Program-made: the position numbers and the translations under genes
Notes under the pieces: generated by a model
Told to the model about the DNA's origin: nothing
Seen by the model: the letters and a program-made list of their open reading frames with translations, nothing else
Databases searched by the model: none
Shown: piece after piece, positions 7,584-60,955 of the stretch
Numbering within the stretch: position 1 is the stretch's first letter
Layout: every line of letters begins with the position of its first letter
Origin: Synergistaceae bacterium
Lineage (GTDB): Bacteria > Synergistota > Synergistia > Synergistales > Aminobacteriaceae
Assembly: GCA_017439345.1 (NCBI GenBank)
Contig: JAFSJJ010000044.1
Location: 124,001 to 188,000, forward strand
Length of the DNA: 64,000 bases
Reading direction: 5' to 3'

Positions 7584-7614
7584 TTGACAGGGGGGGGGGG
7601 GGGGCATGTATAAT
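7584..7614 (+). promoter_or_regulatory. Candidate phase-variable promoter (consensus -35/-10 around a poly-G spacer)
   Basis: A perfect TTGACA (7584-7589) and a perfect TATAAT (7609-7614) are separated by 19 bases, of which 15 are an unbroken run of G. The optimum spacer is 17, so loss of two G by slippage would give an ideal promoter and other changes would weaken it. The predicted start point near 7621 leaves a ~42-base leader before the ATG at 7663, with an AGGGAGTG ribosome site. The same layout is known for porA in Neisseria meningitidis. Confidence 0.8.
7590..7604 (+). repeat. Homopolymer tract, 15 G
   Basis: Fifteen consecutive G, by far the longest G run in this AT-rich window. It fills most of the spacer between two consensus promoter boxes. 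Such tracts mutate by slipped-strand mispairing; the exact length may also be uncertain from sequencing. Confidence 0.95.
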
Positions 7615-7662: not shown

Positions 7663-10600
7663 ATGCACAGGAAATTTTTTATCTTCACCGCTTTACTTCT
7701 CCTCATTTGTTCACCTGCACTTGCCGAGCCCCGCTTGTGGTCAGTGCATAACAGCTACGTTACTGTTGGTTCTACTGTCGGTTCTGATGACTACTTCAAG
7801 ACAGATTTATCGACAGCAAAATTTTTAAACGTTGATCTCGAAGTTGTTGACGATAATACAGCACTTCTTCCGGATATCAACATTAATGACCGTGAATCGA
7901 TTCCCAAATTAACGATTAGTAACGGCAATTATTCTTACTTCACAGGCAGCCTTGTAGAAGAAGTTTCGGGAGGTTCAAAGACTTTCGAGATTGCACGCAC
8001 AGACACTCTCGTACATAATGAAGTCGGCTACAAGAGAACGGGATATAACACACCAGGCTACACAGCTACTAATGAAGAAGGGGACTGGGTACACTTCATG
8101 TTTAATGCTGACGGAGGCATGAACGGAGCGACAGTAACTTGGCCTGATTATGAATCATTAACAGGAGGCAGCGGAACAGTTCCGAATTTCAAGACTACAA
8201 AAGAACAGCTTGATGACATTGTGCCTTATATCGAATATTTTGGAACGCAGGCAGAAGGCTACGAGGAAGGCTGGCTTGCTGTTGAGGGCTTCAAGTGGCG
8301 TTTTGTGAAATCTTCGGACGTAACTAAAGCTGTAACTACTGACGTAAAAATAACTCTTCAGGTAATCGGCAGCTATAATCACGCTGATGATTGTGGTGAG
8401 GATGAGACATACTATGACGGTACAGGGCAGCAACCTATTGTCATTGAAGCCGGTCAACTTCTTTCAGGCGAAGTGAGATTTGAAAAGGGTAATAATGACA
8501 TGCTTTTTTATAACATGCCTAATCAGACAGTCCTGAGATATTACAAAGGTGATAACAAGGACGAATGCTATCAATGGCGTTTTATCCCTAATATGTATCC
8601 TCATAATACCCAAGACTCGAAAGACTCAGTACAGTTAGGTGCGAGTTACGGCTTCTCTGTTCCTCTCAAGAATGGGAAACCCGATTACAAATACACGCAA
8701 TACTTTGGCTCTGGTGTAGGTCTCGTAGTGTATAGGACATTTACACCTGAAATTTTAGCTGCAACAGGTAAAGCTACCATGACAATAGGCGGAGGGAATT
8801 ACTGGCTCAAGAATACCGATGATGAAAAAATCGAGGACGTTTCAGGCTCGAAGACCTACACACTTTTCAGCAGGACATCATTGTTAGACAGTTATTTCGA
8901 GTTCAACTATCTTGTGCCCGGTTACCGCAAAGTCTATTTCACTTACATCAATGACTCATACTCAACAAGAGGCGTGAACTTCATGGACGAGGCAGGCACG
9001 CTCGGCGGACAAAGTATAAGCTGGAGTTTCCCAGGTGAGGCCGACTGGATTAGCTACAGTTCAACACTCCATGAATATCAGGGCAGGGAAGAATTGCTCG
9101 CTTCAAGATATATTCCCTATGTTGAAGCAATTTCAAAGGATAATTATATTACTGAGATAAAATACGGCTTCGTTGAATCTCCTGACCTGGACGGCAGCAA
9201 ATTCGTTACACCTGAACACTTCGCGTCGATGGGTATAAATCTGATAGTCTGGGGTGAAGAAGGGACTTCAACGTTAGACTTTGACACCAAAAACAATGAT
9301 GTAATTTACAACAGTCATTCATTCAAATTAGATAATCCTATTCCTTTTAAAGCCGAATACGGTTACAGAATAGGAGTTATTGTTGATATTTATCCCGAAG
9401 TCGGCCCTACATGGGAGGATTTTAGTTCCTGGCTAGGTGAAGGTAACAGCCATCTTGACGCAAATAAAGCTATCGGATACAACTGGATATTCGATAATTT
9501 ACCGTCTGTAAGCCAAATGAACAGACTCGGTGATGATTTCGATAACGTAGCGGATAACATCGCAGACTCTCTAAGTGAAGACGTGTCGGAAATTATGCCT
9601 GTAGAACGTGAAGAAATGGGCGACGAGACGGGATTTATGCTTGATGTTATAAACGACATAGAACAGACAGAAAGCGTTGACGTTATCGGAAGATTCAAGC
9701 AGCTCAACGTTACTGAGTCAGGAACTTTCGCAGTGAAAGTTACTCTTCCTGATGAGCTATACGACGAAATAGAGGGTGCAGCTTCAAGAGATTTGGTAGT
9801 GTATCCGATTACCAATAGTGAAATTTCAGAGCCAGAATCTGAATCGGAGGCAGAGTCAGAGTCAGCCTCTGCTTCAGCTGCAAGAGTTTCCGGAGGTATC
9901 AAAGTTTCAAGACCTGTAAGGACTTCAGCGAGTAATAAATCATCAGGAAAGTTATTAGCTTCTGACGGCAAGACATTCAACACGATTGACAAGAAAGAAT
10001 TCATTCTAACAGTGCCTTTGACCAAAGCAGAATATGAAGACTACACGAATTACGGTTTGTATCTCGGCCTTAAGACAGCAAGCGACACACCGGCTCCGGC
10101 AGTCCCTGATATCAAGTCCCCTGATGAGACTCCGGACACTGAGTCACAGGATACTAAACCAGGCATTGAATCTCCTGACAACGAGCCTGAAGTTGAAGAT
10201 GACTCGCAGTATGATTATCTTAACCAGAATATTGATCCTGCTGTGAAAGCTGCAATCATGAAACTAATCAGCACTGATTACGAGATAAAAACTTTTATCG
10301 AAGCTATAAAATCTAATGACATAACGAAATATAATAACAATGTTGCAGTCAACAAGAGACACTTTGAGACAATTTCGGGCGATCTTACGAATGCAGAATT
10401 AATCAGCGTCATGCCTGCTTTCACATTCAGTGCGAACGAGCATATTGTTATCATAATGAAAGTATCTGCGGACTTGGCCAATCAGCAAGAGTTACACCTT
10501 TATACGCTCAAGGGTGCTGAGGTCGCAGGGGCAAGCCTAAAGTTCGTGAGGTTCTCGTCAAATCCCGACACCAATGAAGACTCAGGAGCGATGTTCTTTA

Positions 10601-10836
10601 ACTCTAGGGGAACAGCTAAGATAAAGACTCTGACAGAAAATATTGTTTACCTGGCTGCGGAGTTCTCGAAAGGTTCATATGCTCCGTTAGTCTTAACAGG
10701 TACGGCAAAGATTGAAGAGCCTGAAAAAACTTACTCTGATAATATACTCGGCTCATCTTCAGGAGGCTGCAATTCTGGTCTATTTGCTTCAGGTGCTTTA
10801 ATGCTCTTGTTGTTGATGTTCGTTAAGAGAAAATAA
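7663..10836 (+). CDS. Large surface protein with Synergist-CTERM-like sorting tail
   Basis: A 1057-residue exported protein. Residues 1-21 are a signal peptide (ending SPALA). Two diverged ~200-residue units follow, beginning near residues 83 and 372; each has a GNY, an SGxSKT, an RTxxL, a PGY and a PYVE element. A second part has an acidic Glu/Ser run (PESESEAESESASAS, about 722-745) and a Pro/Asp/Glu linker (about 805-855), then a beta-rich domain. The C-terminus has SSGGCNSG, a hydrophobic helix and VKRK, which fits the Synergist-CTERM sorting signal. It is inferred to be anchored at the cell surface. It is single-gene, with its own promoter and terminator. Confidence 0.85.
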   Translation: MHRKFFIFTALLLLICSPALAEPRLWSVHNSYVTVGSTVGSDDYFKTDLSTAKFLNVDLEVVDDNTALLPDININDRESIPKLTISNGNYSYFTGSLVEEVSGGSKTFEIARTDTLVHNEVGYKRTGYNTPGYTATNEEGDWVHFMFNADGGMNGATVTWPDYESLTGGSGTVPNFKTTKEQLDDIVPYIEYFGTQAEGYEEGWLAVEGFKWRFVKSSDVTKAVTTDVKITLQVIGSYNHADDCGEDETYYDGTGQQPIVIEAGQLLSGEVRFEKGNNDMLFYNMPNQTVLRYYKGDNKDECYQWRFIPNMYPHNTQDSKDSVQLGASYGFSVPLKNGKPDYKYTQYFGSGVGLVVYRTFTPEILAATGKATMTIGGGNYWLKNTDDEKIEDVSGSKTYTLFSRTSLLDSYFEFNYLVPGYRKVYFTYINDSYSTRGVNFMDEAGTLGGQSISWSFPGEADWISYSSTLHEYQGREELLASRYIPYVEAISKDNYITEIKYGFVESPDLDGSKFVTPEHFASMGINLIVWGEEGTSTLDFDTKNNDVIYNSHSFKLDNPIPFKAEYGYRIGVIVDIYPEVGPTWEDFSSWLGEGNSHLDANKAIGYNWIFDNLPSVSQMNRLGDDFDNVADNIADSLSEDVSEIMPVEREEMGDETGFMLDVINDIEQTESVDVIGRFKQLNVTESGTFAVKVTLPDELYDEIEGAASRDLVVYPITNSEISEPESESEAESESASASAARVSGGIKVSRPVRTSASNKSSGKLLASDGKTFNTIDKKEFILTVPLTKAEYEDYTNYGLYLGLKTASDTPAPAVPDIKSPDETPDTESQDTKPGIESPDNEPEVEDDSQYDYLNQNIDPAVKAAIMKLISTDYEIKTFIEAIKSNDITKYNNNVAVNKRHFETISGDLTNAELISVMPAFTFSANEHIVIIMKVSADLANQQELHLYTLKGAEVAGASLKFVRFSSNPDTNEDSGAMFFNSRGTAKIKTLTENIVYLAAEFSKGSYAPLVLTGTAKIEEPEKTYSDNILGSSSGGCNSGLFASGALMLLLLMFVKRK

Positions 10837-42010: not shown

Positions 42011-42814
42011 TTATCTGATTAAAATTTGCGGTCTCATCTTCTCAAGAGTCTTAGGGCCTATGCCTCGAACTTGCAGCAAATCCTCAGGAGTCTTGAATGA
42101 TCCCATATTGTTCCTGAAGTCTATTATTCTCTTAGCGATTGCCGGGCCGACACCTTTTAGTTTCGTTAATTCCTGCTCTGAGGCGTGATTTACGTCAACG
42201 AGATTAGAGCCTGCGTTCTGATTATTATTATTCTGAGTCCTAGTCCTGACGTTGCTGACCTGAATACCGGGAACTTTAACAGTAGTAACGTGCTGTGTCT
42301 GTGTCTGAGTCTGAGTCATCATTGCGTGTGCAGCTTCTCTTGACTCTCGTGCCTTCTTTGCCTCTTTAGCTTCAAGTGCCTCGCGTTCGCCCATCTCGTA
42401 TATGTGAATGTGAAGGCCGTCCATCAAAATTTTTTCTGCGAGATTGAGTGAATTTCTATCTGCTTTAGGAGTCATTCCTCCTGCTGACTCGATAGCGTGA
42501 AAGACTCTAGGGTTATCGGGGAGCTTGTAGACTCCGGGCTTATTCACTGCTCCTGTAACGTAGACAAACCAGTCTTCATGTTGACTCTGTTCTTGAGTCT
42601 GAGGCTGAGGCTTTGACTCTGACTCTGACTCTGAGACTTGAGGCAATGGCTTTGGACTCTCCGGGACTTGTTGAGTCTGAGTCTGACTCTGAGTTTGAGT
42701 CTCTTTAGGTGTTGAACTCGTCATGAACATCGCAAGTACTCCTGTAAGCATGAACAAGACAACGCCCAAGCATGGAATTATAAATTTCTTGTACTGATCA
42801 AAAAGTTTTCGCAT
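42011..42814 (-). CDS. comEA: ComEA-family DNA-binding protein with SLBB domain
   Basis: A 267-residue membrane-anchored protein. One N-terminal helix (about 12-31) is followed by a linker of Gln/Thr and Ser/Glu repeats (about 35-78), an SLBB domain (VYVTGAVNKPGVYKLPDN...HAIESAGGM), a second Gln/Thr linker (TQTQTQTQH) and a double helix-hairpin-helix at the C-terminus (VDVNHASEQELTKLKGVGPAIAKRI; VRGIGPKTLEKMRP). It binds incoming double-stranded DNA in the periplasm. The repeat linkers are unusually low in complexity. Confidence 0.9.
   Translation of the reverse strand: MRKLFDQYKKFIIPCLGVVLFMLTGVLAMFMTSSTPKETQTQSQTQTQQVPESPKPLPQVSESESESKPQPQTQEQSQHEDWFVYVTGAVNKPGVYKLPDNPRVFHAIESAGGMTPKADRNSLNLAEKILMDGLHIHIYEMGEREALEAKEAKKARESREAAHAMMTQTQTQTQHVTTVKVPGIQVSNVRTRTQNNNNQNAGSNLVDVNHASEQELTKLKGVGPAIAKRIIDFRNNMGSFKTPEDLLQVRGIGPKTLEKMRPQILIR
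42293..42320. repeat. TGAGTC-type hexamer tract in comEA
   Basis: Tandem TGTGTC/TGAGTC hexamers encode Gln-Thr repeats on the minus strand. The same kind of hexamer occurs in several unrelated genes of the window. Confidence 0.7.
42613..42702. repeat. TGACTC/TGAGTC hexamer tracts in comEA
   Basis: Two clusters (42613-42636 and 42671-42702) of GACTCT/GAGTCT hexamers. On the minus strand they encode Ser-Glu and Thr-Gln repeats in the linker between the membrane helix and the SLBB domain. Confidence 0.7.
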
Positions 42815-50880: not shown

Positions 50881-53800
50881 ATGTGTCATAAATCCGAACT
50901 TGACAAGCAAGAAATTTTCACAGACACAATAAAGCAGCTTGGAGATAACGCAATATTAATACTCCTTCACGATGATGACAGACCAGAAGCAGTGTTCATA
51001 TCGCCCCAGTATGCAGCCATGATGGAAGATTCACGGGATAATCTCAAACGCTTTAACAGAACCGGAGACTTTCGGGAACTCATTCACCCTGAAGACAGAC
51101 ATCTTGTTGATTACATGCTCGATAATCACGAGTCGCCTGATGAGAATAAATCCCAAAATATCCAGATAAGATTAATCACAGCTCAGAAAAATATAATATG
51201 GTGCGATGTTCATTATGCGTTTATCACGGTAGGGACTCTGAATTATATATATATTACGTTTCATGACATAACTTTATTCAGGAATTACGAAGACAAGATC
51301 AGGACAAGCTATGACTCTATAGGCCAAAATTTTTATCATCAGGACGAGCACACTTTGGGAATGTTCCGGGCAGATTTGACTCTTGACGAGATTAAAGAAG
51401 TCAGGGGCAGAGATATATTTAATCTTAATCACGAACACGAACAGAAAATTTATTCAGAAATGTTAAAGCTGAGAGCAAGGCACTACATAAATTTTATGGA
51501 ACGCAAAAAGTTTCTGGAATTATTTAACGTTGACTCCCTTCTCGATAATTATATTAAAGGCCGGATGGAGACCAAGCAGGTATTATTATCAAAGCGTGAG
51601 AACGGTGTTATATGCTACGTTGAAATTTCCGCGATGACTACACGAGACCCCTTGAGCGGACACGTTATGGCGTTTATCACAGAGCGTGAATGCAATGACT
51701 CGAAAGTGTATCAGACTATAGTAGACAAAATTCTTGCGCGCCAGTTCGAGATGATTGCATACATGGCAGCAGGAAAATATCACGTTACAGTCAGCGATAA
51801 AATTGAAGGCAGCATTTTACCTAAAAGCACTCATGATACTTTCAGCGATTATATTAATGACGAGATTGTACCCATCCTGCACGGCACTGAAGAACAGAAA
51901 AATTCTATGGCTCATTCGTTAGCCCCTGACTCTATAGCATTCGGGACTCAGAGAAACGCCCTCTATGAAGTTAATATAGTCTGTGAAATCGAACATAAAA
52001 TTTTCTACAAGCAATTTAATTTTTACGCAGTCAACCCCGGATTCTTTATTATTCTTGTTGCAGATACTACACGGCTTCACACTGAACAGCAGGAGAGAGC
52101 AGCACAGCTTGAGGACGCTCTTGAACTAGCGAAGGCAGCAACTATTCAGGCACGTAAAGCTAACTCGGCGAAGAGTGAATTTCTCGCTAACATGTCCCAT
52201 GAGATTCGCACTCCAATTAACGCAGTCTTAGGCATGAACGAAATGATCATACGTGAAAGCACCAGCTCAAGAATTACGACTTACGCAAGAAATGTAGAAA
52301 GCGCAGGCAAAAATTTATTATCGATAATAAATGACATACTTGACTTCTCAAAGATCGAAGCAGGCAAAATGGAAATCGCAGAGAGTGATTACAGGTTAAG
52401 TTCTGTTCTTAATGACGTTACTAATATGATAGTCTTCAAGGCTAAACAGAAAGATTTGCAGTTCACTGTCAGCGTTGACGAGGAATTACCGGACGGACTC
52501 TACGGCGATGAAGTGAGGGTCAGGCAGGTTGTTACGAACGTGTTAAATAATGCAGTGAAATATACCCGTGAAGGCAGCGTTACTCTTAACGTCTCAGGCA
52601 GCAAATCATATCAGGACGACGGCAGCGTGATTATAAATCTTGTCTTCAGAGTCAGCGATACAGGCATAGGCATTAAACAGGAGGACTTGCCCAAATTATT
52701 CAGGAAATTTGAACGCATTGATTTAGTCCAGAATAACACTGTTGAAGGCACAGGACTCGGACTCTCTATAACTCAGAATCTGCTTCACATGATGAACGGA
52801 ACTATTGAAGTCGAAAGCGAATACGGCAAAGGTTCAGTCTTCACGATAAATTTACCTCAAAAAATAATTTCCGATGAGGCAATAGGCAACTTCCACGAGA
52901 AATTTGAACGCTACGTTCACACCATGAGGGCATATAAAGAGTCATTCAAGGCTCCTGACGCAAAATTATTAGTCGTCGATGATACGGACATGAATTTAAC
53001 GGTCATTGAGGGCTTACTCAGCAAGACGGAAATCAATCTCGATACAGCTTCAAGCGGTGCGGAGGCTCTGACATTCACGAAATCAAAGCGTTATGATTTA
53101 ATCTTCATGGATCAAAGAATGCCTCACATGGACGGGACTCAGACTCTGAATAATATACGCTCTCAAGATGACGGACTGAATAAAGATACTCCGGTTATAT
53201 GTCTTACTGCTGATGCTGTCAGCGGTGCAAGAAGTAAATATATCGAAGAGGGCTTCACTGATTATTTGTCTAAGCCTGTAGAAAGCTCCAGCCTTGAAGG
53301 TGCGCTAATAAAATATCTGCCTCCTGAAAAAATTATCTTGCAGGACGAGAACGAGTCAGAGTCTCAAGAGTCAGACTCAGAGTCAGAGTCATTATCTGAA
53401 CTCGCAAAGTTTTATTCTCAGACTGAAGGACTTAATTATGACGAAGCCGTCAAGAACTGTGCGAATGAAGCTATACTCGCTAAGACTTTACAGCAATTTT
53501 GGAACTCGATAAATAATAACCTGCGCGATATTCAGAAATTTTTGAGCGAACACGACATCAAGAATTACACTATCAAAGTTCACGCCTTGAAGTCATCAGC
53601 AAGACTAATAGGAGCAGAAGAGCTTTCACGGCAGGCAGCATATCTTGAAGAGTGCGGCAATAACGATAATCTTGACGAGATAGAAAAATTAACACCGGCA
53701 TTGCTAGAGCTTTATAAAACATATCTTGATAAACTCGCAGTGTTGTATAAGCAGGATGATAATGCAGAAGTCATATTACGTGAAAGATTATACGAGGCTT

Positions 53801-54735: not shown

Positions 54736-55462
54736 ACAGTTCAGCCTCGTCAATAGGTCTCACAACGTCTTCGAATGTATCAAGGACGTAAATAGATCCG
54801 TCGTTCATGCCCACATAATAGTCATTAATAGCTGAAATATAATCCGGGAAATCTTCGCCGTGTATGAAATGCCAGCAGAGTTCTTCTTTATTGTCAGCCT
54901 CGTCATAAAGCGTTAGAGTCTCTCCGCCTGCTGAGTCTGAGTCAGAGTCAGAGCCTATGACAAGGACGTTATTACGCTGCCATATTCCGCGCTTCTTGAG
55001 TTCACGTTCAAGCAGTTCTTGAGCTTCTTTCTGAGTCAGTTTTCTTCTTTCGTGTTGAGTCTGAGTCTGAGTCTGAGTCTCCGGTTCAGGTTTAGATTCA
55101 GTCATTGCTATTTCTGGTTCAGGTTCGTTGGTGTATCTTCTCTTGAGCCTCTCGATATATTTAATGCGTCCTTCGATAGACTGCACATAAGCATCAACTT
55201 TAGAAAGATTATTATTCGCGATTAAGTCTTCTGCTGTCCTGTCGAGACCTGAAGCGATCCATTCTTTATGAGACTCCCTCAAGGCTTTATAGTCTTCGTC
55301 AGGCAAAATATTTTTTAACTCGTCAATAAGTTTCGTTAATCTTTTATCAGAAGCACGAAAGAACGGATCCTTTTTCATGTCGTAATATTCACGGTCATTC
55401 AGAGCAAATGCACTTTCACATAAAGTTAATACAAACATGATGATAACTATAAGCCTTCTCAA
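54734..55462 (-). CDS. Secreted protein with LprI/DUF1311-like domain
   Basis: A 242-residue exported protein starting at TTG 55462 (AGGAGG eight bases upstream). The signal peptide is about 1-20 (ending SAFA). Residues 25-110 are helical and reminiscent of lysozyme-inhibitor LprI proteins (ADDKRLTKL-type start, DEDYKALRESHKEWIASGLDRTAEDL). A Glu/Pro and Gln/Thr repeat linker (TQTQTQTQH) and a C-terminal segment with SDSDSDSAGGE follow. The family call is tentative. Confidence 0.6.
   Translation of the reverse strand: MRRLIVIIMFVLTLCESAFALNDREYYDMKKDPFFRASDKRLTKLIDELKNILPDEDYKALRESHKEWIASGLDRTAEDLIANNNLSKVDAYVQSIEGRIKYIERLKRRYTNEPEPEIAMTESKPEPETQTQTQTQHERRKLTQKEAQELLERELKKRGIWQRNNVLVIGSDSDSDSAGGETLTLYDEADNKEELCWHFIHGEDFPDYISAINDYYVGMNDGSIYVLDTFEDVVRPIDEAEL
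54931..54953. repeat. TGAGTC hexamer tract in the LprI-like gene
   Basis: Tandem TGAGTC/CAGAGT units encode Ser-Asp repeats on the minus strand. Another such tract lies about 100 bases away in a different reading phase of the same gene. Confidence 0.65.
55055..55080. repeat. TGAGTC hexamer tract, four units
   Basis: Four perfect TGAGTC-type units encode Thr-Gln repeats on the minus strand; the neighbouring tract at 54931 encodes Ser-Asp from a related hexamer. Confidence 0.7.
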
Positions 55463-57753: not shown

Positions 57754-57818
57754 TTTAACTGAAAAATTCGGTATAATTGCGTAAAAAATTTACATGAAAG
57801 GAGCTTGACAAAATAAAA

Positions 57819-59417
57819 ATGGCCGCTAAAATTGTCAAGTCAAGTCAAGTCAAGTCATATTATTGTCTCTTAATATCTTATCTTAAAAATTGGCATTGGC
57901 GTAATCTTCTTCTCACAGTATATTTATTCTTTGTCCTGATGTCGTATTTTATCGTAAATATGGATCTCAGGAAGTTCGGACGTGCTTATATAATTTCTCT
58001 TGCTGAGGTTATATTAATCATATCGATTTATATTTGTCCCAAGCTGTTAAAATTTGCAGAAGGACTCAGCATACATTATGACGATGAAGAAAAAGTTACA
58101 CGAAAATTTTTTATTGAGGCATTGCTTATTTCGTTTGCCGTATTCTTCAGCATGTATATTATTTATTATCCCGGAGCTTTCTCGCCGGATTCAATTGACC
58201 AATACGGACAGGCCGCAGGATTCAGGAATTATAAAGACTGGCATCCTGTTTTACACACACTATTTGCTTTTACCCTGCCTTTAAAGATTTCCGGGGGCTG
58301 GATAGGCTCTATAGTACTCTTTCAGATTATAGTTTTCTCGCTGGCTTTGGCTTATATGGCTTATACTCTGACTGAGTTCGGAAATATTAAATACGCGAGA
58401 TTATTTTTGCTGTATATCCTAATTAATCCTGCGACTTTGGGAATTTCAATGTATCCGTGGAAAGATGTATCGTTTGCAGTGTTTGCGATGCTTGCTATGT
58501 GTTTTGCTGTACGTGTTTATTTTTCCGGCGGTGAATGGCTGAAGAGTCCGTTGCACATGATTATATTTTTGCTTGTAATCGTTGCAGCGACCATATTTAG
58601 ACATAACGCAATATTATTTACACTGCCCCTTTTAATCGCTGTTATATTTTATGTATCACGAAAGAAAAAATTTTTACTGGCTGCAGGTTTTGTGTTGATT
58701 ATATTTCTTGTTAGAGGGCCTCTTTATTCGTGCCTGAACGTTTCAAGTCCCGGCTATAGAGTAGAACCTGCTTTTTTTCCAATGACTGTTATAGGCAATG
58801 CAGTTACACAGACTCCCGAAAGAATCGATAAAGATATTACTGATTTCGCGTATAAATTTCTTCCTAAAGATGAATGGCAGAAACATTATGTTACAGGAAA
58901 CTTTCTAAGCGTGGCCTTTAGGAAAGTAAACTGGGAGGTTGTAAAGTCTGTTGGATACATAAAAATTCTTAATATGATGTTCAGATGCTTCAAAGAATCT
59001 CACATGGCCTCACTTAAAGGATTACTTGCTCTTACTGATATGGTTTTTGGTATAGCAGGGCGCGTTGATTGGCTGATCATTCCCGGCATACACACGAATT
59101 CGTACGGAATTAAACAAAACGGTATAAGTTTTATGCAGACTTTGTTTATATATTATATACGCTTCTCAAGAATGTTCTTAAAGCATATTTTCTGGCATAT
59201 AGGAGTATTGCTGCTTATTACGTTAATATTTACTCTTGTGAAATTAAATCTTTGCACTAAATCAGGCTGGCAGAAGTTATCTTTTGTTATTCCGTTATTT
59301 ATGCATGACTATGGGACAATGCTTTTTATAGGCGGCAATGATTTTAGATATTTTTACTGCACGTATCTTGTTATGCCCTTACTTTGTCTAATTCTGCTTG
59401 TAAAGGAGTCGGATTAA
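57819..59417 (+). CDS. DUF6020-like polytopic membrane protein, possible GT-C glycosyltransferase
   Basis: A 532-residue protein with about twelve membrane helices. The segment YPGAFSPDSIDQYGQA followed by DWHPVLHT fits DUF6020; an acidic pair in the first outside loop is typical of GT-C lipid-sugar transferases. The first codons hold 4.8 tandem GTCAA units (57834-57857). GAGTC/GACTC pentamers are few (I count about four in 1.6 kb) and codon use is more AT-rich than in neighbours, hinting at transfer. An AAAGGAG lies 15 bases before the ATG. The next gene begins three bases after its stop. Confidence 0.7.
   Translation: MAAKIVKSSQVKSYYCLLISYLKNWHWRNLLLTVYLFFVLMSYFIVNMDLRKFGRAYIISLAEVILIISIYICPKLLKFAEGLSIHYDDEEKVTRKFFIEALLISFAVFFSMYIIYYPGAFSPDSIDQYGQAAGFRNYKDWHPVLHTLFAFTLPLKISGGWIGSIVLFQIIVFSLALAYMAYTLTEFGNIKYARLFLLYILINPATLGISMYPWKDVSFAVFAMLAMCFAVRVYFSGGEWLKSPLHMIIFLLVIVAATIFRHNAILFTLPLLIAVIFYVSRKKKFLLAAGFVLIIFLVRGPLYSCLNVSSPGYRVEPAFFPMTVIGNAVTQTPERIDKDITDFAYKFLPKDEWQKHYVTGNFLSVAFRKVNWEVVKSVGYIKILNMMFRCFKESHMASLKGLLALTDMVFGIAGRVDWLIIPGIHTNSYGIKQNGISFMQTLFIYYIRFSRMFLKHIFWHIGVLLLITLIFTLVKLNLCTKSGWQKLSFVIPLFMHDYGTMLFIGGNDFRYFYCTYLVMPLLCLILLVKESD
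57834..57857 (+). repeat. Pentanucleotide tandem repeat (GTCAA, 4.8 copies) inside the start of a gene
   Basis: Four full GTCAA units plus GTCA begin five codons after the ATG at 57819. The present number keeps the long frame open. Reading by hand, loss of one unit stops at about codon 21 and gain of one unit at about codon 20. This is the layout of a translational phase switch. Confidence 0.9.
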
Positions 59418-59419
59418 TC

Positions 59420-60955
59420 ATGAAAATCTTAATCATCGGCGCAGGCCCGGCAGGTCTTACAGCAGCATATGAATTACTCGCAAAAAATAATAATGATCAT
59501 GAAGTAATCATACTCGAAGAAAGCTCTTACATGGGCGGAATTTGCAAGACGGTCATTCACAACGGAAATTATCTAGACTTAGGCGGACATAGATTCTTTA
59601 CCAGAGTTCAGGAAGTCAGTAACTGGTGGCAGAATATCATGCCTTCTCAGGGAGCTTTGCCTTATGACTATAAAACTTTGGGACGTGAAGCAGTAATCAC
59701 TCCAGGAGGCCCTGACCCTGAAAAAACTGATCGAGTCATGCTGCTCAGAAACACTCTTTCAAGAATATTATTCAAGCGCAAATTTTTTGACTATCCTGTT
59801 TCACTTAGATTAAGCACGTTAAGAAATATGGGCTTTATTACAAGCATTACTGCAGGCTTTAGTTACATCAAGAGCCTAATCTTTAGACGCAAAGAAAACT
59901 CACTTGAGGACTTCTACATAAATCGCTTCGGCAAAAAGTTATACTCGATGTTCTTCGAGAATTACACGCAAAATCTATGGGGCAGGCATCCTTCAGAGAT
60001 TTCACCGGAATGGGGTTCTCAAAGAATTAAAGGGTTGTCAATTGCTGCAATAATACGCGACCTCTTTCACTCTGATAGTAAACGAAGCGAACCTTCATTA
60101 AGTAACAATTTTGCGTATCCCAAGTTAGGCCCCGGCCAATTATGGGAAATCACTGCTCAGGAAATAATAAAACTCGGAGGCAGGATCATAACAGGAGCAA
60201 AAGTTATCGCGCTTAACAAGTCAGGTGATGTTATAACAGGACTCGAATACGTGAAGGACAATCAAACTGTTACGCTTACAGGAGATATTATTATTTCATC
60301 AATGCCCTTGAAAGATTTAATTGCAGGACTTAATGACGTTCCAGAACGAATTAAATTTATTGCCTCAGGTCTGCCGTATCGTGATTACATGATAGCAGGG
60401 ATATTGATTAAATCTCTTGCCCTCAAGAATGAGACCCGCATTAGGACTTTGGGAGGCATCGTTCCGGATAACTGGATTTACGTTCATGACAAGAGCGTAA
60501 AAATGGGACGCATTCAGGTCTTCAATAACTGGTCGCCTTATATGGTCAATGACGTTGAACATACCGTGTGGCTTGGCCTTGAGTACTTCTGCAATGAAGG
60601 TGACTCGTTCTGGTCAATGAGCGATTCTGAATTTGCGGAGCTTGCCGTTAATGAAATGCTGAAGCTGGGCTTGATTAAGTCTCTTGATGATGTCCTTGAC
60701 TCTCACGTTGAACGCGTCAGGAAAGCATACCCCGCTTACTTTGACACGTATGAACATATTGACGAGCTGAGAGAATTTCTTGACTCGATTAATAATCTTT
60801 ACTGTGTCGGCAGGAACGGCCAGCATAGATATAATAATATCGATCACTCAATGTGTACGGCGTTTGAAGCTGTGAAAAATATTTTGTCAGGCACTCAGGA
60901 TAAATCTAACATCTGGAACGTCAACACAGATAAAGAATATAACGAAAGCAGATAG
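59420..60955 (+). CDS. FAD-dependent oxidoreductase (protoporphyrinogen oxidase / UGM-like)
   Basis: A 511-residue flavoprotein. The Rossmann dinucleotide motif MKILIIGAGPAGLTAAYELL opens the protein, with ILEESSYMGGICKTV and LDLGGHRFF typical of the COG1232/amine-oxidase group. The C-terminus has YCVGRNGQHRYNNIDHSM. The substrate is unknown; proximity to a putative glycosyltransferase suggests a sugar or lipid-sugar. The frame extends to 59384, but AAAGGAG at 59402-59408 and the motif at the start favour ATG 59420. Confidence 0.85.
   Translation: MKILIIGAGPAGLTAAYELLAKNNNDHEVIILEESSYMGGICKTVIHNGNYLDLGGHRFFTRVQEVSNWWQNIMPSQGALPYDYKTLGREAVITPGGPDPEKTDRVMLLRNTLSRILFKRKFFDYPVSLRLSTLRNMGFITSITAGFSYIKSLIFRRKENSLEDFYINRFGKKLYSMFFENYTQNLWGRHPSEISPEWGSQRIKGLSIAAIIRDLFHSDSKRSEPSLSNNFAYPKLGPGQLWEITAQEIIKLGGRIITGAKVIALNKSGDVITGLEYVKDNQTVTLTGDIIISSMPLKDLIAGLNDVPERIKFIASGLPYRDYMIAGILIKSLALKNETRIRTLGGIVPDNWIYVHDKSVKMGRIQVFNNWSPYMVNDVEHTVWLGLEYFCNEGDSFWSMSDSEFAELAVNEMLKLGLIKSLDDVLDSHVERVRKAYPAYFDTYEHIDELREFLDSINNLYCVGRNGQHRYNNIDHSMCTAFEAVKNILSGTQDKSNIWNVNTDKEYNESR

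Follow-up and report, generated by a model that had tools for sequence, protein, structure and literature searches.

A gene in the genome of an uncultured rumen bacterium of the family Synergistaceae carries a short tandem array of the pentamer GTCAA directly inside its start. The question raised by this locus is whether the array turns the translation of the gene on and off, and whether the locus stands alone. The window, i.e. the whole stretch of DNA that was analysed, comprises 64,000 nucleotides, and it was compared with the remainder of its own genome and with other genomes of the genus and the order. The array is most probably a translational on/off switch, and the start region that holds it one copy of a start module distributed throughout the genus (rough probability 0.84). 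The original prediction had read the locus as translational phase variation, and that reading was too modest in one respect: the locus is one of many sharing a start module.

Reading frame of the GTCAA array

57819..57821, plus strand: ATG, start codon of the candidate switchable gene; with the present number of units, no other ATG, GTG or TTG precedes the conserved core in the frame of the gene
57834..57857, plus strand: (GTCAA)4.8 array (TRF, 100% matches), giving a VKSSQ cycle whichever frame is translated
57819..59417, plus strand: predicted GT-C-fold membrane glycosyltransferase gene of 532 codons ending at 59417, ON as assembled (open reading frame; AlphaFold2; fold matches)

The pentamer repeat reported directly inside the start is real: TRF places 4.8 copies of GTCAA at 57834–57857, in the open reading frame that runs from ATG 57819, and these 24 nucleotides form codons 6–13 of its 532 codons. 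A scan over unit numbers found the frame open with 1, 4, 7 or 10 full units, and the assembly has four, which is the ON state. With three units (−1) the frame of ATG 57819 ends at codon 20 and with five (+1) at codon 19, in agreement with the earlier hand reading of stops near codon 20 and of 532 open codons at the present number; a change of three units restores the open frame. With three units a TTG located 13 nt into the open reading frame enters the gene frame, and the three-unit state is therefore possibly not completely off, some weak expression being left from this internal start.

A true start 3' of the repeat, which the original prediction had named as a finding that would speak against it, was looked for and rejected: the gene frame has no ATG, GTG or TTG before codon 27 past the array, and this codon is inside a predicted helix (residues 27–47). 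Also a chance repeat was rejected. Only two perfect pentamer arrays of at least three copies are present in the 452 kb of the own genome that were checked, the GTCAA array of the window and one GACAA array, and both adjoin the same start module. The 2.54-Mb genome has no other GTCAA array of 3.6 copies. The start codon is spanned by two potential RNA hairpin arms (CTTGACAA and TTGTCAAG), which were rejected as a functional element, the fold being no better than that of shuffled sequences (z −0.63).

The start module and its promoters

57772..57777, plus strand: TATAAT, −10 element of a candidate upstream promoter (P1), read directly
57797..57803, plus strand: AAAGGAG, Shine-Dalgarno-like, read directly and conserved in the module alignment A5
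57805..57832, plus strand: TTGACA-16 nt-TAAAAT, near-perfect sigma-70 promoter (P2) with 11/12 consensus matches, overlapping the start codon

The shared 5' flanks of the arrays have a constant order of Shine-Dalgarno sequence, TTGACA, start codon, NATAAT and array. Altogether 101 non-redundant loci with a module and an array were compared. An exact TATAAT is present upstream in 50 of them, against 8.5 in shuffles, and a −10 element of the P2 type (at least 5/6 matches, 16–18 nt from TTGACA) in 80, against 4 in shuffles. The ATG commonly stands at offset 8 or 14 from TTGACA. AAAGGAG is located 15 nt before ATG 57819, which is a long spacing, and 9 nt before an alternative ATG slot that reads ATA in the window. 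The near-universal presence of TTGACA and of a G-rich upstream stretch is no independent evidence, because the search models contain TTGACA and the count of 101 required TTGAC together with the G-rich stretch. When loci with upstream sequence were selected by their GTCAA array instead, six of the 21 lacked TTGACA by eye (L112, L113, L115, L121, L122 and L132), and all of these except L122 keep the ATG (5/6).

The transcript from P1, which would include both the Shine-Dalgarno sequence and the ATG, is probably the productive one. A transcript from P2 would begin inside the array and without the ATG, and the conservation of P2 has no explanation in the switch model. It may be that a conserved promoter pointing into the array raises the instability of the array or sets the transcript of the OFF state.

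Distribution in the genus

Of the 43 genus genomes, 16 have a run of three GTCAA copies, as does one of the 137 other genomes of the order. The module model R1 had matches in 34 of the 43 genus genomes (E 0.01), and the broader model R2 in 30 of 41 genus genomes and in none of the 137 others (E 1e-5). The possibility of a single odd gene was thus ruled out by the genus-wide module search. Most of the R1 matches are followed by other perfect tandem repeats, their units including GACAA, GACCA, GACAC, TCCAG and CACAT. Behind the module were further found GGAGTCA, GAACCAC, ATCGGTT, AGCTCAC, GGTTCACA and more, and the units differ between the loci. The scan detected an array in 72 of the 79 R1 matches examined, while seven were without one.

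The alignments A4 and A5 used 16 of 21 and 68 of 81 upstream sequences, respectively. The 101 loci are the 114 scanned arrays minus 13, these being arrays of ACTTG and CTTGT together with one 12-nt coding repeat in L092; the ACTTG and CTTGT arrays were dropped because they are reverse-strand readings of GTCAA and GACAA and themselves hold TTGAC. Another tabulation, made with a different rule, gave 98 array loci, and the two sets overlap.

The window's own genome has at least 20 loci with a module and an array, and among its best 30 R2 matches, 22 were by reading followed by an array of 5- or 7-nt units. Many module arrays are situated at contig ends (G003, G004, G009, G013, G015, G020, G041 and others). 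Because of this the numbers of modules are probably undercounts, short-read metagenome assemblies appearing to break at these loci, which is also a warning for work on such assemblies.

Unit length, stop codons and start codons

In the 101 loci the unit length was 5 nt in 56, 7 nt in 43, 8 nt in one and 6 nt in one. The unit is thus no multiple of three in 100 of the 101, and the only 6-nt array has 2.5 copies. No tetramer units were found behind the module among these loci. As a control, arrays of at least three copies outside the modules in 452 kb of the own genome had mostly units of 1, 3, 4 and 6 nt.

Neither 5 nor 7 nor 8 is divisible by three, so that an array of such units encodes one peptide cycle whichever frame is read, and any stop codon in the unit closes every frame. 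Stop codons were absent in any frame from all the 41 distinct units in the sense direction, against 12 of 41 in the antisense direction (Fisher 1e-4; unit-shuffle P 0.001). The spacer holds an ATG in 95 of the 101 loci, compared to 34 in shuffled spacers, and some start codon in every one of them (101/101).

Genes behind the module

An open reading frame of at least 600 nt runs straight out of the array at 46 loci. These fused genes are ON in 16 cases, the window locus included, OFF in 23 and unresolved in seven, and the OFF ones are intact. The proportion of 16 ON genes out of 39 is what random frames (one third ON) would give, so that the ratio as such proves nothing and it is the intactness of the OFF genes that counts. 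In annotation, fused genes in the OFF frame resemble pseudogenes or receive wrong start codons. The Pfam families most often found in the fused genes were glycosyltransferase 2 (six), acyltransferase 3 (five), GT61 (five) and bacterial sugar transferase (four), followed by DUF2142 (two), polysaccharide pyruvyl transferase (two), methyltransferases and UDP-glucose dehydrogenase. Two fused genes, L163 and L195, have a GT2 domain from residue 5 past the array onwards, and their first in-frame start stands at codons 34 and 20, respectively. Since the domain begins before that start, the array would have to be translated for the whole domain to be made.

Other genes stand behind a short leader. In 21 of 27 leader loci one frame ends within −6 to +8 nt of the ATG of the gene (6.8 ± 2.0 in dinucleotide shuffles), and in 14 of the 27 it overlaps the gene start as ATGA or TAATG (5.1 in shuffles). 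Six of the 27 were without a coupled frame, and eight further loci were left out of the test, their gene start not being found by the rule. Terminator-like hairpins were seen by eye in the leader between array and gene at L126, L128, L130 and L135. In such coupled loci the translated leader frame might also decide on transcription beyond the leader.

When 16 genes behind the module were scanned in the own genome, the window gene excluded, GT2 was found in six; LicD, GT8, MBOAT, acyltransferase 3, ATP-grasp sugar transfer, UDP-glucose dehydrogenase and methyltransferases were also present. Judged by these families, the genes behind the module are surface-glycan enzymes.

Unit numbers differ between closely similar copies. 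G025 and G041, a pair from different species, have eight and six units of GTCAA with a downstream sequence 96% identical, and two near-identical copies within the window's genome have ATCGGTT in 7.6 and 5.6 copies.

The GT-C gene and its neighbour

The product of the window gene had been called GT-C/DUF6020-like, of which the first part is supported by the predicted fold and the second finds no Pfam match above the cut-off. The AlphaFold2 model has a mean pLDDT of 88.3, the residues below 50 (1–10 and 18–20) falling in and around the repeat-coded end. Compared with solved structures, the model gave Z 20.7 over 319 residues with Pmt4 and Z 16.1 with ArnT, and the top rows were GT-C enzymes, even though the sequence identity to these two is only about 10%. 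Foldseek alone gave no PDB match for the model at E ≤0.001. The Pfam scan of the protein found no family even at E 10, and only one relative, L058, matches DUF6020 (PF19484), with 25.0 bits under the curated cut-off of 28.3. GT-C enzymes have a conserved acidic residue in an early loop, with a catalytic role; D124 and D216, invariant among 16 aligned homologues, would be candidates for it. The model thus supports a GT-C-fold enzyme as the product.

A homologue search with the single sequence found no relative in the genome contigs or the viral contigs; an alignment-based query found 20. The gene is present in seven of the 43 genus genomes, the own genome counted. In two sister species (G038 and G012) the homologue lacks an array and begins at a plain ATG behind a normal ribosome site. 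In the alignment this start falls at the window array or just behind it, the product in G038 (MRKFMAYLKGW) just behind it. From these plain starts we infer that the array-coded N-terminus was not part of the ancestral GT-C protein. The family occurs in both forms, fused in the window and with a leader in G041 (GTCAA array) and G029 (GACAA array), the two leader forms being out of frame as assembled.

In the homologue of G008 (L006), two copies of GTTCC follow right after an ATG and, read by eye, shift the gene from the frame of that ATG; the duplication sits where the normal N-terminus of the family starts. It is possibly a second pentamer switch of the GT-C gene, although two copies are weak evidence.

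The gene downstream starts shortly after the stop of the GT-C gene.

59421..60955, plus strand: FAD/NAD(P)-binding amine-oxidase-like gene (Pfam PF01593; NCBIfam NF005546)

A similar start sequence also comes after the GT-C homologue of G012, and the downstream gene is a probable operon partner.

Other repeats in the window and its genome

At positions 7590–7604 of the window a tract of 15 G exactly fills the gap from TTGACA to CATG-TATAAT (19-nt spacer); an open reading frame of 1057 amino acids (7663–10836) lies downstream. A switch of promoter spacing by homopolymer length is plausible here. By our own count the genome has approximately 37 poly-G tracts with a length of 10 nt or more, e.g. 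in L017, L021, L088, L095 and L096. The motif [AC]GTAA occurs at most 30 nt upstream in 16 of the 25 tracts examined, compared to 5% of random 30-nt stretches. With these tracts the genome may have contingency elements of a second family.

Also in the own genome (C33, L096:2680–2757), the octamer GAACAATC is repeated 9.8 times directly after ATGAAA and without a TTGACA module, before a methyltransferase-like sequence with an in-frame TAG soon after. Hexamer runs of TGAGTC/GAGTCA are present in the window at 42581–42702, 53353–53391 and 54933–55080. They are frame-neutral, unlike the module arrays, as six is a multiple of three.

Proposed mechanism and alternative explanations

According to the proposed mechanism, replication slippage would add or remove 5-nt units of GTCAA and each change would bring the GT-C gene into or out of phase with ATG 57819, the assembly having captured the ON state. 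The start region would be one copy of a module that stands before many surface-glycan genes of the genus, its units of 5, 7 or 8 nt being interchangeable. A gene would either be fused directly to the array, as in the window, or be reached by translational coupling through a short leader, of which only one frame is open and ends on the start codon of the gene. Translational phase variation, as originally predicted, is supported by the logic of the frames, the 5-, 7- and 8-nt units of the modules, the absence of stops from the sense units, the starts in the spacers and the intactness of genes in either frame state, and the coupled leaders belong to the same pattern; all of these are read from sequence. 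Switching in the cells and a change of surface glycans would follow from slippage. The rate at the window locus may be low, because its array is short, with only 4.8 units.

An unlikely alternative is that P2 is the real promoter, its transcript beginning in the array, which would then be an untranslated leader tuning expression, with ATG 57819 unused within the promoter spacer. This would fit the near-perfect sequence of P2 and its conserved −10 element in the modules (80 of the 101 loci against 4 in shuffles). It would, however, leave the fused genes without a start before their domains, and it gives no reason for the unit lengths of 5, 7 and 8, the avoidance of stops, the ATG in the spacer or the coupled frames of the leaders. 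Moreover, in the array-selected GTCAA loci it is TTGACA that is missing from six of 21, and yet the ATG is kept in five of these six. Less probable still is a fixed and harmless N-terminal extension, the repeats of the genus being relics that vary no longer. The shortness of the array and the predicted disorder of residues 1–10 and 18–20 would agree with it, but the number of units differs between near-identical copies, and a fixed array would leave the many intact out-of-frame genes dead and decaying.

That the pattern is an artefact of collapsed or mis-joined repeats is hardly credible. Short reads do struggle with such repeats, as the many arrays at contig ends indicate, and array lengths near the read length may be wrong. 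The window array, however, is 24 nt, far under the usual read length, and lies inside a 257-kb contig, and the same pattern recurs in independent assemblies.

The translational switch remains the preferred reading. A wider one, for which we see somewhat less than an even chance, is that promoters, ribosome site, start codon and array together form a portable cassette. It would have spread through the genus by replacing the starts of unrelated surface-glycan genes, its units rewritten freely under two rules, a length not divisible by three and the absence of stops from all frames.

Comparison with known systems

The best-known cases of phase variation by repeats are those of host-adapted pathogens. 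The genus studied here, uncultured Synergistaceae of the rumen, apparently has at least 20 switches in one genome, on glycan genes and from a shared module. If this is true, very many combinations of surface glycans would be available in one lineage of rumen commensals. The locus makes testable the diversification of commensal surfaces, presumably against phages, protozoa or host antibodies, as well as the origin of contingency loci by the capture of start codons and the question of whether the unit sequence matters beyond the frame. No report of repeat switching in Synergistota was found in the titles and abstracts searched of the open-licence literature, nor one of a shared start module with interchangeable units or of the form with a coupled leader.

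The tetranucleotide contingency genes of Haemophilus influenzae include lic, lex and mod. The window's genome resembles this species in that some of its genes with a module belong to the LicD family or to GT8, and differs in that no tetramer was found among the repeats behind the module. We know of no promoter and start module shared by different genes in H. influenzae. A general parallel is the placing of repeats near the start codon of surface-sugar genes in that species (PMC2651432). In Campylobacter many surface genes per genome are switched by simple repeats, the phasome (PMC6321876), and these repeats are poly-G/C homopolymers (PMC8355987), unlike the 5-, 7- and 8-nt units of the modules. 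Poly-G tracts, however, are numerous in the window's genome as well. The product of the window gene is like Pmt4 and ArnT in fold and unlike them in sequence.

The nearest known system is Neisseria opa, in which, according to PMC3745409, the pentamer (CTCTT)n in the 5' coding end moves the frame by gain or loss of units at several loci per genome. The window likewise has a pentamer array in the 5' coding end with a frame shift per unit, and its genome several such loci. The window gene is not itself an opa gene, the unit being GTCAA instead of CTCTT and the product a predicted GT-C membrane enzyme. The opa genes make up a single family with one unit, and their repeat lies in the signal peptide; the module, by contrast, stands before glycan genes unrelated to each other, whose units differ (5, 7 or 8 nt) and of which many are reached via a coupled leader. 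The switching of translation by pentamers has long been known from opa, and what appears to be new is the shared module with exchangeable units.
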